Origin: Deltaproteobacteria bacterium RBG_13_61_14 | GTDB taxonomy: Bacteria > RBG-13-61-14 | Assembly (NCBI GenBank): GCA_001797815.1 | Contig: MGQK01000120.1 | Location: 1,542 to 7,731, forward strand | Direction: 5' to 3' | DNA: 6,190 nt | Shown here: one piece after another, positions 230-4,847 of the stretch | Layout: each line of letters starts with the position of its first letter | How positions within the stretch are numbered: the first letter of the stretch is position 1 | The notes under the pieces: model-generated | Seen by the model: the letters and a program-made list of their open reading frames with translations, nothing else | Told to the model about the DNA's origin: nothing | Database searches by the model: none | Program-made: the position numbers and the translations under genes

Positions 230-472
230 CTATTTGTTATCGGGACGGGTCAGGCCATTCTTTGGTCCCTCCTTTTTCAGCAATACTTTCGGATTCACCT
301 CGATCGGATCAGTCCCCAGAATTTTCACAATTACCGCCAATTCCTCCGGGGTGGCGATAATCGTGCCCCGTTCGATCCGGCTAATTCGGGATTGGGAAAA
401 TCCGGTCAGCTCGGCGAGTCGGTCCTGAGACAGGTCCCTGGCAACCCTTAAAATTTTTAACTTCGACACCAT
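230..472 (-). CDS. XRE/Cro-CI-type helix-turn-helix regulator, 80 aa
   Basis: A small cytoplasmic DNA-binding protein, probably the repressor of the element. Residues 4-52 form one HTH_3 (XRE) domain. LSQDRLAELTGFSQSRISRIE at about 14-34 shows the usual SQ..LA..TG.SQS.IS.IE pattern, so the recognition helix is around 26-34. The remaining 28 residues are a short, basic, proline- and lysine-rich tail with no second domain, so there is no peptidase or ligand domain of the LexA or classical CI kind. The ATG at 472 is chosen because AAAAGGAGA lies eight bases upstream; an ATG six bases before that SD-proximal start is followed at once by a stop. The gene has its own promoter (529-558) and faces the xis-like and integrase genes, as in phage lysogeny switches. 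An antitoxin is the main alternative, but no toxin-like partner is visible. Confidence 0.85.
   Translation of the reverse strand: MVSKLKILRVARDLSQDRLAELTGFSQSRISRIERGTIIATPEELAVIVKILGTDPIEVNPKVLLKKEGPKNGLTRPDNK
448..460 (-). promoter_or_regulatory. Candidate operator palindrome inside the XRE gene start
   Basis: On the minus strand this reads TTAAAA-A-TTTTAA, a perfect 6-1-6 palindrome over codons 5-9 of the XRE gene. Its 9-bp core AAAAATTTT recurs at 51-59 (minus), just before the ribosome site of the gene starting at 40, and at 567-575 (plus), beside the XRE promoter. Three copies near three control points suggest a binding site, but the area is AT-rich and chance cannot be excluded. Confidence 0.25.
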
Positions 473-2296: not shown

Positions 2297-2339
2297 AAAA
2301 AAGGGATCACGCCGCCTTGAGCGTAACCCCTTGATTTTT
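2297..2339. terminator. Two-way terminator between integrase and tRNA
   Basis: AAGGG (2301-2305) pairs with CCCTT (2328-2332) and an inner ACGC with GCGT, with a small internal loop. On the plus side a T run (2335-2339) follows, and on the minus side six T (complement of 2297-2302) follow. It can therefore end integrase transcripts rightward and the tRNA transcript leftward. The stem is imperfect. Confidence 0.45.
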
Positions 2340-2385
2340 GGAGGGCCGTGCGGGATTCGGACCCGCGACCAACGGATTAAAAGTC
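2339..2385. other. Probable attachment site (att) in the 3' half of tRNA-Lys
   Basis: An integrase gene, tandem arm-like repeats and the 3' end of a tRNA lie in order within about 150 bp. Tyrosine recombinases of islands and phages commonly recombine within the 3' half of tRNA genes, and the element restores that half. The crossover would fall somewhere between the anticodon loop (about 2379-2385) and the CCA end. The matching second copy was not found in this window and should lie at the other, left end of the element. Exact core limits cannot be set from one side. Confidence 0.55.
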
Positions 2386-2415
2386 CGCTGCTCTACCAGA
2401 CTGAGCTAACGGCCC
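2339..2415 (-). tRNA. tRNA-Lys (anticodon TTT)
   Basis: Reads lysine codons AAA/AAG. The minus strand folds as a full cloverleaf: a 7-bp acceptor stem GGGCCGT/ACGGCCC (2415-2409 with 2349-2343), D arm GCTC/GAGC, a 5-bp anticodon stem with loop CTTTTAA (anticodon TTT), a 5-nt variable loop and T stem GCGGG/CCCGC. CCA is encoded (2341-2339). Two bases are unusual. The T loop reads TCCGAAT where TTCGAAT is nearly universal, so position 55 is C in place of T. The discriminator base 73 is T, where bacterial lysine tRNAs normally have A or G. Both lie in the 3' half, which an integrating element would supply. The gene should still be read as a tRNA, though it may be a weakened or altered copy. Confidence 0.92.
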
Positions 2416-2429
2416 CTTTTGACCCAAAT

Positions 2430-2458
2430 ACCATAACACGCCCCGAGTCGAGGCGCAA
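2430..2458 (-). promoter_or_regulatory. Promoter of the tRNA-Lys gene
   Basis: On the minus strand TTGCGC (2458-2453) and TATGGT (2435-2430) are 17 bp apart, with a start expected near 2423, a few bases before the mature 5' end at 2415. The -35 lies only four bases from the left flank repeat of the MITE-like element, so sequence just upstream of the promoter has been replaced by that insertion. Confidence 0.5.
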
Positions 2459-2470
2459 GCCTGAAAATGC

Positions 2471-2617
2471 TCTTGCCACCCCCATTTTTTGACCGCACCG
2501 TAAATTTTCGGACTTTGTAGGGGCGCAATTCATTGCGCCCAGTTTCTGCAAGGGCGCGATAAATCGCGCCCCTACCCCGCGCCGCGAGGGGTTCCCGGAA
2601 AAATGGGGGCGGGCAAG
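2471..2617. mobile_element. MITE-like element with inverted ends and a 9-bp flank duplication
   Basis: A non-coding 147-bp unit has near-perfect inverted ends: CTTGCCACCCCCATTTTT (2472-2489) and AAAAATGGGGGCGGGCAAG (2599-2617), which differ by about one substitution and one base of length. Immediately outside, TGAAAATGC stands as a 9-bp direct repeat at 2462-2470 and 2618-2626, as expected for a target duplication. The inside carries two opposed REP hairpins. It encodes no transposase and must have been moved by an enzyme supplied elsewhere. The flank repeat and the ends are seen directly; transposition is inferred. The family is not recognised. Confidence 0.6.
2517..2575. repeat. Pair of inverted GTAG-headed REP hairpins (BIME-like)
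   Basis: The left unit (2517-2540) is GTAG followed by a hairpin GGGCGCAAT/ATTGCGCCC. The right unit (2552-2575), read on the minus strand, is GTAG followed by GGGCGCGAT/ATCGCGCCC. An 11-bp spacer separates them, and the outer GTAGGGGCGC/GCGCCCCTAC also pair. A GTAG head plus a GC-rich hairpin is the signature of REP sequences mobilised by RAYT (TnpA_REP) transposases, and two opposed copies form a BIME. The two hairpins differ by matched changes that keep base pairing. Confidence 0.75.
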
Positions 2618-2652
2618 TGAAAATGCATATGTAATGGACCTCACTATTTATC

Positions 2653-2707: not shown

Positions 2708-2923
2708 CTAAAGGCCGAGCAGGGTGCGGGCGATGATCTGGCGCTGGATCTCCGAGGTGCCGCCCCCGATGGTGGCGAGCAGGGAATCGCGCAGCCACCG
2801 CTCCACCTCGAACTCCCGCATGTAGCCGTAACCGCCGTGGAGCTGGAGCGCGTCCAAATAAACCTTCCGCGCCGCCTCCCGCAGCGCCACCTGCTCCTCG
2901 GTCAAACTGAAATCCAGCGCCAT
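2708..2923 (-). pseudogene. Acyl-CoA dehydrogenase with a large internal in-frame deletion, 71 codons left
   Basis: Normal acyl-CoA dehydrogenases have about 380 residues and oxidise acyl-CoA with FAD, passing electrons to ETF. Here residues 1-20 (MALDFSLTEEQVALREAARK) are a typical N-terminus, and residues 21-71 are a typical C-terminus with LQLHGGYGY, the likely catalytic Glu at 37 (REFEVER), GGGTSEIQ and a final IARTLLGL. The roughly 310 residues between them, with most of the FAD and substrate sites, are missing, so no enzyme activity is expected. The frame is open, AGGAGG lies seven bases before the ATG at 2923, a promoter is visible (2956-2984) and a terminator follows. The junction falls at EAARK-V, a sequence type that occurs at both ends of the family, so deletion between short similar sequences is likely. 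It may still be expressed as a micropeptide. Confidence 0.75.
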
Positions 2924-2955
2924 CGGCTGCCCTCCTGGCAAAAAATACCGCTTCC

Positions 2956-3200: not shown

Positions 3201-4847
3201 GTGATGAAGAAACCGAAGAGTCGGCGGATATTCGAGGACCAGGGCGCGCCCATCGGCATTGTCCGGCTTTCAATTTTGAAAGGGATTGGGGTGGACGTGG
3301 AGGAGTTGCGGAATAAGCCCATGATCGCGGTGGTCAACTCCCACACCGACCTGAACCCCGGCCACGCCCACCTGAAATACCTGGCCGAGCGGGTCAAGGA
3401 AGGCGTGCACGCGGCCGGAGGCCTGCCCTTCGAGTTCAACGTCCCGGCGCCGTGCGACGGCATCGCCAACGGCAACGAGGGCATGCAGTTCATCCTGCCC
3501 CAGCGCGAGCTGATCGCGGACATGGTCGAGACCTACGTGCGCTCGCAATGGTTCGACGGCCTGGTCCTGATCTCGGGCTGCGACAAGATCAACCCCGGCA
3601 TGCTCATGGCTGCGGCCCGGCTCGACCTCCCCGCCATCTACCTGTCCGGCGGACCGGGCGTCTGGCAGATCCGCTTCACCCCCGGCCGCAAAAAGAGCGT
3701 GGACCACAAGGACTACTCCGACTTCGCCCAGAAGATCGCCACCGCCACCTGCGCCTCCTGCGGCGCCTGCGAGATCATGGGCACCGCCAACACCTTCCAG
3801 TGCCTGGCCGAGGCCCTGGGCATGGCGCTCCCGGGTTCCTCCAACGTCCCCGCCTTCCACGCGGACAAGCTCCGCTTCGCCCGCCAGACCGGGATGCGGG
3901 TAGTGGCGATGGTGGAGGAGGAGCTGACCGCGAGGAAGATCATGACCCAGGCCGCGCTGGAAAACGCGGTGATGGTGGACCACGCCATCGGCGGGTCCAC
4001 CAATTCAACTTTGCATTTGCCGGCCCTGGCCCGGGAGCTGGGCTTGGAGCTGCCCCTCTCGGTCTTCAACGAATTCAACCGCAAGGTGCCGACGCTCTGC
4101 GGCATCAGTCCCAGCGGGCCGTTCGGGGTGGTGGACCTCTTTTCCGCCGGCGGCATCCCCGCGGTGATGAAGCGGCTCAGCGCCGACATCCGCCAGGACG
4201 CTCTGAGCGTGACCGGCAAGACCATGGGCGAGGTGATCGCGAGCGCCAAGGTGCTGGACCCGGAGGTGATCCCGCCGCGCGAGCAGCCGCACTTCATTGA
4301 GGGCGGGACCGCGGTGCTCTTCGGCAACCTGGCGCCGGACGGCGCGGTGGTCAAGCAGTCGGCCGTGGCCCGGGACATGCTCGCCTTCACCGGCAGGGCG
4401 CGGGTGGTGGAAACCGAGCAGGGCGCTATGGACGTGGTCCGCAAGCGCGAGATCAAGGAGGGGGAAGTGCTGGTGATCCGCTACGAGGGGCCCAAGGGCG
4501 GACCGGGCATGCCCGAGCTCTTGAGCGTCACCGTCATGCTCGATCTGCTCCAGTTCAAGAAAGTGGCGCTGGTCACCGACGGCCGCTTCTCCGGCGCCAC
4601 CGCCGGCCCCTGCATCGGCCACGTCTCGCCCGAAGCCTATGACGGCGGCCCGCTTGCCGCGGTCCGGGACGGCGACGAGATCGAGATTGACATTCCTCAG
4701 CGCAAGCTCGAGGTGAAAATCAGCGAGAGCGAGATCAAAAAGCGGCTGCAAGGGTTCAAGCCGCTCGAGCGCGAGGTGCCGGCGGGCTATCTCCGCCGCT
4801 ACCGCCGGATGGTGAGCAGCGCGGCCAAGGGGGCCGTTTTGGATTGA
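3201..4847 (+). CDS. ilvD: Dihydroxy-acid dehydratase (IlvD/Edd family), 548 aa
   Basis: Cytoplasmic Fe-S enzyme that removes water from 2,3-dihydroxy-isovalerate and 2,3-dihydroxy-3-methylvalerate to give the 2-keto acids for valine, leucine and isoleucine. The match runs end to end at normal length. Cluster ligand cysteines are C85 (PCDGIA), C127 (SGCDK) and C190 (CASCGAC). Mg-site residues are E93 (NEGM), D128, the probably carbamylated K129, and E429 (RYEGPKGGPGM), with the likely catalytic base S464 (DGRFSGAT). GGSTN, NLAPDGAVVKQSAV, GHVSPEA and the closing GYLRRYRRMVSSAAKGAVL are typical. NSHTDLNPGHAHL near residue 46 and CGACEIMGTANTF at 187-199 depart from the commonest forms, so a sugar-acid dehydratase of the same family cannot be excluded; no other ilv gene is nearby. 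GAGGAGG suits both GTG 3201 and ATG 3204. The MBL gene follows after 42 bp. Confidence 0.9.
   Translation: MMKKPKSRRIFEDQGAPIGIVRLSILKGIGVDVEELRNKPMIAVVNSHTDLNPGHAHLKYLAERVKEGVHAAGGLPFEFNVPAPCDGIANGNEGMQFILPQRELIADMVETYVRSQWFDGLVLISGCDKINPGMLMAAARLDLPAIYLSGGPGVWQIRFTPGRKKSVDHKDYSDFAQKIATATCASCGACEIMGTANTFQCLAEALGMALPGSSNVPAFHADKLRFARQTGMRVVAMVEEELTARKIMTQAALENAVMVDHAIGGSTNSTLHLPALARELGLELPLSVFNEFNRKVPTLCGISPSGPFGVVDLFSAGGIPAVMKRLSADIRQDALSVTGKTMGEVIASAKVLDPEVIPPREQPHFIEGGTAVLFGNLAPDGAVVKQSAVARDMLAFTGRARVVETEQGAMDVVRKREIKEGEVLVIRYEGPKGGPGMPELLSVTVMLDLLQFKKVALVTDGRFSGATAGPCIGHVSPEAYDGGPLAAVRDGDEIEIDIPQRKLEVKISESEIKKRLQGFKPLEREVPAGYLRRYRRMVSSAAKGAVLD

Follow-up and report, generated by a model that had tools for sequence, protein, structure and literature searches.

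CTTGCC-ended MITEs at a fixed position upstream of sigma70-type promoters, probably moved by an IS4-type transposase

We analysed a 6,190-nucleotide stretch of bacterial DNA (the window) and observed that a short repeat beside its tRNA-Lys gene belongs to a multi-copy MITE family, most members of which stand at one fixed distance upstream of a sigma70-type promoter. The same ends and the same register recur in other genomes, around elements of different content. Judged from these sequences, the window unit is probably a non-autonomous derivative of an IS4 group, moved in trans by a transposase that would cut just upstream of sigma70 promoters.

The window unit is one of many copies of a MITE

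The features of the unit and of the adjoining promoter are as follows (window positions).

2339..2415, minus strand: tRNA-Lys (TTT), whose promoter is the one targeted
2430..2435, minus strand: -10 box TATGGT of the tRNA-Lys promoter, at a 17-bp spacer
2453..2458, minus strand: -35 box TTGCGC of the same promoter, starting 3 nt outside the duplication
2462..2471, plus strand: target site duplication, left copy, TGAAAATGCT, from the alignment of copies
2472..2617, no strand assigned: MITE, gene-less, 146 bp, from its ends and the aligned genomic copies
2472..2490, plus strand: left terminal inverted repeat, CTTGCCACCCCCATTTTTT
2517..2540, plus strand: GTAG-type REP hairpin 1, GTAGGGGCGCAATTCATTGCGCCC
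2552..2575, minus strand: GTAG-type REP hairpin 2, opposed to hairpin 1 and forming a REPIN-like pair with it
2599..2617, minus strand: right terminal inverted repeat, CTTGCCCGCCCCCATTTTT read on the minus strand (inward)
2618..2627, plus strand: target site duplication, right copy, TGAAAATGCA, 9/10 identical, from the alignment of copies

The whole host genome (4.74 Mb, 132 contigs) was searched, the matching places were fetched, and their ends and duplications were located. About 40 places match the window unit at E<1e-20 and the copies number about 40-50, with unit lengths of 114-149 bp (most of them 135-149 bp). The end motif, with <=2 mismatches allowed, occurs 85 times in the host genome vs 3 times for the reversed pattern. 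Given this copy number and the excess of end motifs, the unit is a repeat and not a chance arrangement. It is short and gene-less, has inverted ends and a target site duplication, and is present in many copies, as a MITE should be. The earlier note had proposed a MITE with a target duplication and intact ends, an idea that depended on other copies being present somewhere; the ends and the aligned host copies bear it out, and the genome search supplied the copies. The MITE was not found in the 40 relatives searched, one of which shares the REP hairpins only.

The inverted ends of the window copy span 19 nt (79% complementary, and 93% over the inner 14 nt) and begin CTTGCC. The direct repeat TGAAAATGC at 2462-2470 and 2618-2626, which had been read as a 9-bp duplication around a 147-bp unit, comprises the nine identical positions of a 10-bp duplication; comparison of the host copies gives 10 bp, so that 9 bp was rejected and the unit corrected to 146 bp. 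Among 45 scored host copies, the two duplicated stretches are identical at 10/10 positions in 20 and at 9/10 in 8. The suggestion that the unit had moved very recently found no support, as the host copies are 76-98% identical to it and its own duplication and ends carry mismatches. The window unit also folds far better than its shuffled versions (z -5.8, 0/200 shuffles), a strong fold that comes from the GTAG hairpins and the paired ends.

Copies stand in a fixed register to sigma70-type promoters

Among the 40 host copies with a readable duplication, 32 have a sigma70-type promoter starting exactly 3 nt outside it. These promoters point away from the element and are of the form TTGACA, 17 bp, TAnnnT, whereas at any other offset (0 to 39 tested) a promoter was found in only 0-4 copies. 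Promoter scores came from an E. coli-type -35/-10 matrix set in advance. The offset of 3 was spotted by eye in the first 20 copies; the later copies (L021 on) and the other genomes described below form an independent check.

A good -10 at 16-18 bp was present in 66% of the copies with a good -35, vs 2.0% of 1128 control -35-like sites drawn from the fetched host loci only (p=5.5e-16). In a stricter comparison confined to TTGA-type -35 boxes, 25/29 copies had a -10 vs 12/160 intergenic TTGA sites (p=3e-18). The aligned targets showed no base preference within the duplicated 10 bp, followed by nn-C-TTGACA-17-TAnnnT, the base before TTG being C in 25/34 targets. The target logo outside the duplication is the canonical sigma70 promoter. 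The MITE was found in both orientations relative to the target (23 and 8 copies), and about 20% of the copies had no clear promoter. By a crude ORF check, 10/17 loci with long flanks had a correctly oriented gene start on the side where the promoter lies.

The distance from the element end to the -35 box is 13 bp. Counted back from the usual transcription start, the duplication covers about -48 to -39, and DNA at this position is bound by the C-terminal domain of the alpha subunit of RNA polymerase. That the window unit adjoins the tRNA-Lys promoter, as pointed out in the earlier note, is correct; the placement is an insertion rule of the whole family and not incidental. Another copy (L029) sits likewise before a tRNA-Met gene.

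Two further observations concern individual copies. The copy in L035 (about 308-448) is flanked by an in-register promoter on each side (TTGATA-17-TATGAT and TTGACC-17-TAATAA), as though it had inserted between two back-to-back promoters. In L076 (551-659) and L087 (1239-1500), MITE copies or ends are interrupted by another repeat, a GGGGTCAGAGCTAAACTTTAAA-like sequence, which is probably a further mobile family.

Surroundings of the unit in the window

On the far side of the tRNA-Lys gene, the window carries the following genes.

230-472, minus strand: Cro/C1-type regulator
775-1029: excisionase-like HTH_17 protein
1237-2268: tyrosine integrase (PF00589, E 8.9e-25)

This set of integrase, excisionase-like and regulator genes (230-2338) ends at the 3' side of tRNA-Lys, and the region probably marks one border of an island that integrated at this tRNA gene. 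On the other side of the MITE, what is left of an acyl-CoA dehydrogenase at 2708-2924 (minus strand) covers the C-terminus alone (profile positions 96-150 of PF00441); it looks like a gene remnant between the MITE and ilvD (3201-4847).

The same ends and register occur in other genomes

The species genome collection was searched with a 20-base form of the MITE end, which matched 38 stretches. Many of these stretches come from deltaproteobacterial, acidobacterial, Nitrospinota, Desulfuromonadales or Troglogloeales genomes. Four Arthrobacter-type matches (L119, L120, L137 and L139) were set aside as chance, their flanks being near-identical to one another and coding-looking. The MITEs of the relatives are 93, 191, 192 and about 325 bp long and have unrelated interiors; their duplications agree at 8-10 of 10 bases, and their promoters stand in the same register. 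When the ends from the other genomes were pooled, the predicted offset yielded a promoter for 23 of them, whereas no other offset did so for more than 4. Since the register is kept with different hosts and different interiors, the rule belongs to the ends and their enzyme, and not to the host or the REP interior.

Autonomous relatives carry an IS4-type transposase

An acidobacterial element of 1925 bp has the same ends (as a 23-bp inverted repeat) and two genes, the first coding for a 102-aa DUF6788 protein (E 1.2e-11) and the second for a 399-aa transposase (DDE_Tnp_1, E 2.6e-14). In a 1.2-kb Nitrospinota element, perfect ends enclose a DUF6788 gene together with a degraded form of the acidobacterial-type transposase, and a -35 box is in register on both sides of the element. 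When 396 genomes from the acidobacterial phylum were searched for the transposase, relatives turned up in five further genomes; where the ends of these relatives are visible, they begin CTTGCC. In the autonomous element of L159 all 10 bp of the duplication agree and GG-CTTGACA follows, and at L160, L158 and L162 we found TTGACA with a -10 at 17 bp, at offsets 3, 2 and 2, respectively. The autonomous elements in L155, L156 and L157 showed no promoter on the readable side. The companion of the transposase gene varies: it is often DUF6788 (L154, L156, L157 and L133), in L155 it is a DruA-family gene, and no companion was seen in L158.

The transposase of the relatives passes the PF01609 cut-off (53.9 vs 23). 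It does not pass a curated NCBIfam IS4 model, the nearest being IS4_2 (136 bits vs a cut-off of 152). In six aligned transposases D109, D175 and E285 are invariant, with spacings of 66 and 110, as are Y278, R281, E285 and K292 of the YREK motif. These values fall within the D(60-110)D(100-150)E and Y(2)R(3)E(6)K patterns of the IS4 family, and the 10-bp duplication agrees with the roughly one helix turn that this family duplicates at its target. By the published definition (PMC2266710), to which both the DDE spacing and the YREK residues conform, we class the relatives' transposases as IS4-type. The CTTGCC-ended group is probably a new IS4 subgroup. No solved structure was matched by sequence with the transposase profile.

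The transposase of L148 had no match at E<=1e-20 in 386 diverse genomes, and none in plasmids or viral contigs, indicating that the driver is rare. In L155 (71-2225) a DruA-family gene (PF14236, E 1.1e-37) lies beside a transposase of the same group, with one CTTGCC end within reach. This DruA-family protein is a relative of the Druantia defence protein, and DruA-type proteins may be transposon companions.

In the host genome itself no transposase of the CTTGCC group was found (best weak match, E 0.0057). The host assembly is incomplete (95%), and several of its contigs end in MITE copies; the driver is either lost from the host or unassembled. The three DDE_Tnp_1 genes of the host were considered for this role and rejected, as none has CTTGCC ends. 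An autonomous partner in the same genome, as looked for with a MITE, was not found in the host; such partners exist in other genomes. A CTTGCC-ended transposase, which the earlier note had recommended looking for, does exist and is of IS4 type, only not in the host. As no host transposase of this group was found, the link of the window unit to IS4 rests on the identical ends and the same target register elsewhere.

The interior of the MITE is a REPIN-like pair

The two opposed GTAG hairpins that had been noticed inside the unit were located at 2517-2540 and 2552-2575. The host genome has 194 GTAG hairpin matches (palindromic ones counted on both strands) and 0 for the reversed pattern, together with 19 genes for Y1-type transposases (RAYT superfamily). 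REP pairs without MITE ends also occur free in this genome (L202, L203 and L212). The interior therefore shows what is expected of a REPIN or BIME, namely opposed GTAG hairpins, free copies and Y1-type genes in the same genome. Between the two possibilities raised earlier, a MITE carrying REP-derived folds or REPs inserted into a MITE, the REPs do lie inside, and a MITE carrying a REPIN is favoured by the free REP pairs in the host and by the other interiors of the relatives' MITEs. The simplest reading is that the MITE captured a REPIN before multiplying, the REPs being cargo, and the captured REPIN would probably play no part in transposition.

The host is also rich in other REP families, with further classes of palindromic GTAG hairpins, for example GTAGGGGCGACCGGCCGGTCGCCCCTAC. 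Identical 24-base GTAG hairpins were seen at many places in a distant genome of another family (G033), without the MITE, which shows that this REP class crosses wide taxonomic distances.

Proposed mechanism and alternatives

In the explanation that we favour, a transposase now missing or unassembled in the host would make cuts 10 bp apart, at a constant place just upstream of sigma70 promoters, so that the duplicated 10 bp come to lie at about -48 to -39 with the -35 box 3 bp beyond. Insertion outside the -35 leaves the core promoter intact and breaks no gene, and such targeting would pay by sparing the host. Both hexamers and their spacing matter though the cut lies outside them, and from this we infer that promoters are most likely found through promoter-bound RNA polymerase or its DNA bend, and not by reading the -35 and -10 boxes. 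Going further, we tentatively put forward, at slightly below an even chance, that an IS4-type lineage present in several phyla independently evolved docking on sigma70 RNA polymerase, with insertion at the alpha-CTD/UP-element position. Docking might proceed through the DUF6788 companion or a domain of the transposase.

In the main rival reading, the enzyme would recognise, at a set distance, no more than a short CTTGnC word resembling its own ends, and would strike promoters because CTTGACA occurs in them. The CTTGCC ends do resemble the targeted CTTGAC, and the frequent C before TTG (25/34 targets) fits this reading; the -10 box, however, lies 17 bp off and is as conserved as in real promoters (25/29 vs 12/160), and we consider the reading unlikely. 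It is highly improbable that insertion was random and that selection retained the copies upstream of promoters as harmless or expression-helping. Most copies are indeed intergenic and their position spares the core promoter, but selection would tolerate many positions, whereas the register holds to the single base (32 copies at offset 3, 0-4 at any other) and is found again in unrelated genomes, where the MITEs differ in content.

Two other alternatives concern the driver. Were it a Mutator-like enzyme of the ISKra4/ISLre2 type, with the ends of the IS4 elements shared by coincidence, the host family would join the only elements reported to target promoters (PMC3942029), at a distance close to the 13 bp found here. 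This is very improbable in view of a 20-base end match combined with the same 10-bp duplication and register in IS4-carrying elements, the transposases of which match DDE_Tnp_1 (PF01609) and IS4 models, while no Mutator-type model was matched. That the REPs are the mobile part, driven by a RAYT, with the ends incidental, is scarcely credible. The 19 Y1-type genes and 194 hairpin matches speak for it, and the Y1-type genes are candidates for the RAYT gene that the earlier note had advised seeking; the ends and duplication, however, are not of the Y1 kind, flank the REP pair from outside and are kept in relatives whose interiors differ, and REP pairs occur free of MITE ends. Y1 enzymes are not known to produce duplications of 10 bp.

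Relation to known elements and significance

Insertion upstream of promoters has been described for TnGBS/ISLre2 (p-MULT 3) and some ISKra4 elements (p-MULT 4), all with Mutator-like transposases, the insertions lying 13-17 bp upstream of the -35 (PMC3942029). The elements described here share with TnGBS/ISLre2 and ISKra4 a fixed short distance upstream of a sigmaA/sigma70 -35, a DDE transposase and, for near-symmetrical-ended elements, insertion in both orientations. They differ in having an IS4-type transposase (PF01609, YREK) in place of a Mutator-like one, other ends, a distance of 13 bp from end to -35 where 15-17 bp are reported for TnGBS/ISLre2 and ISKra4, and a MITE with a REPIN interior. 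They thus show the fixed position upstream of a sigmaA/sigma70 promoter that characterises p-MULT elements, without the Mutator-like transposase.

With the IS4 family they have in common the DDE spacing, the Y(2)R(3)E(6)K motif, a duplication of about 10 bp and a single-ORF transposase. The subgroups of this family are IS10, IS50, IS231, IS4Sa, IS4, ISH8 and ISPepr1 (PMC2266710); CTTGCC ends with a 10-bp duplication fit none in the subgroup table, IS10 having CT ends and 9 bp. The DUF6788 companion is a further difference, as is promoter targeting, which is not described for the family: the word promoter is absent from the IS4 family review (PMC2266710), as the term IS4 is from PMC3942029. In the open literature (subscription papers and ISfinder being outside its scope) we found no promoter-targeting IS4 element. 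Judging by the sequences at hand, we rate the CTTGCC elements as having a known target, promoters, and an enzyme family different from that of the Mutator-like precedents.

The likeness to REPINs and BIMEs (GTAG REPs, Y1 RAYT) lies in the interior of opposed GTAG hairpins and in the abundant Y1-type genes of the host; here, in contrast, the whole unit moves by its inverted ends with a 10-bp duplication, the REPs being inside. Ty3 and similar eukaryotic retrotransposons insert at a fixed position just upstream of transcription starts, including those of tRNA genes. The placement is alike, but the elements and the polymerases are unrelated and the comparison is an analogy only. If docking on RNA polymerase proved true, the IS4-type lineage would be the equivalent of Ty3 in bacteria and would stand apart from the Mutator-like elements that target promoters.

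The data indicate that, among bacterial transposons, promoters are targeted by enzymes other than Mutator-like ones too, and two unrelated enzyme families become comparable for the way in which they find promoters. If targeting is guided by the polymerase, a contact between transposon and RNA polymerase becomes directly testable. As the gene and the core promoter are spared, such an element could be put to use for integration at safe sites. In uncultured bacteria, the places where it has inserted chart active promoters in a natural way, and two of the targets are tRNA promoters.
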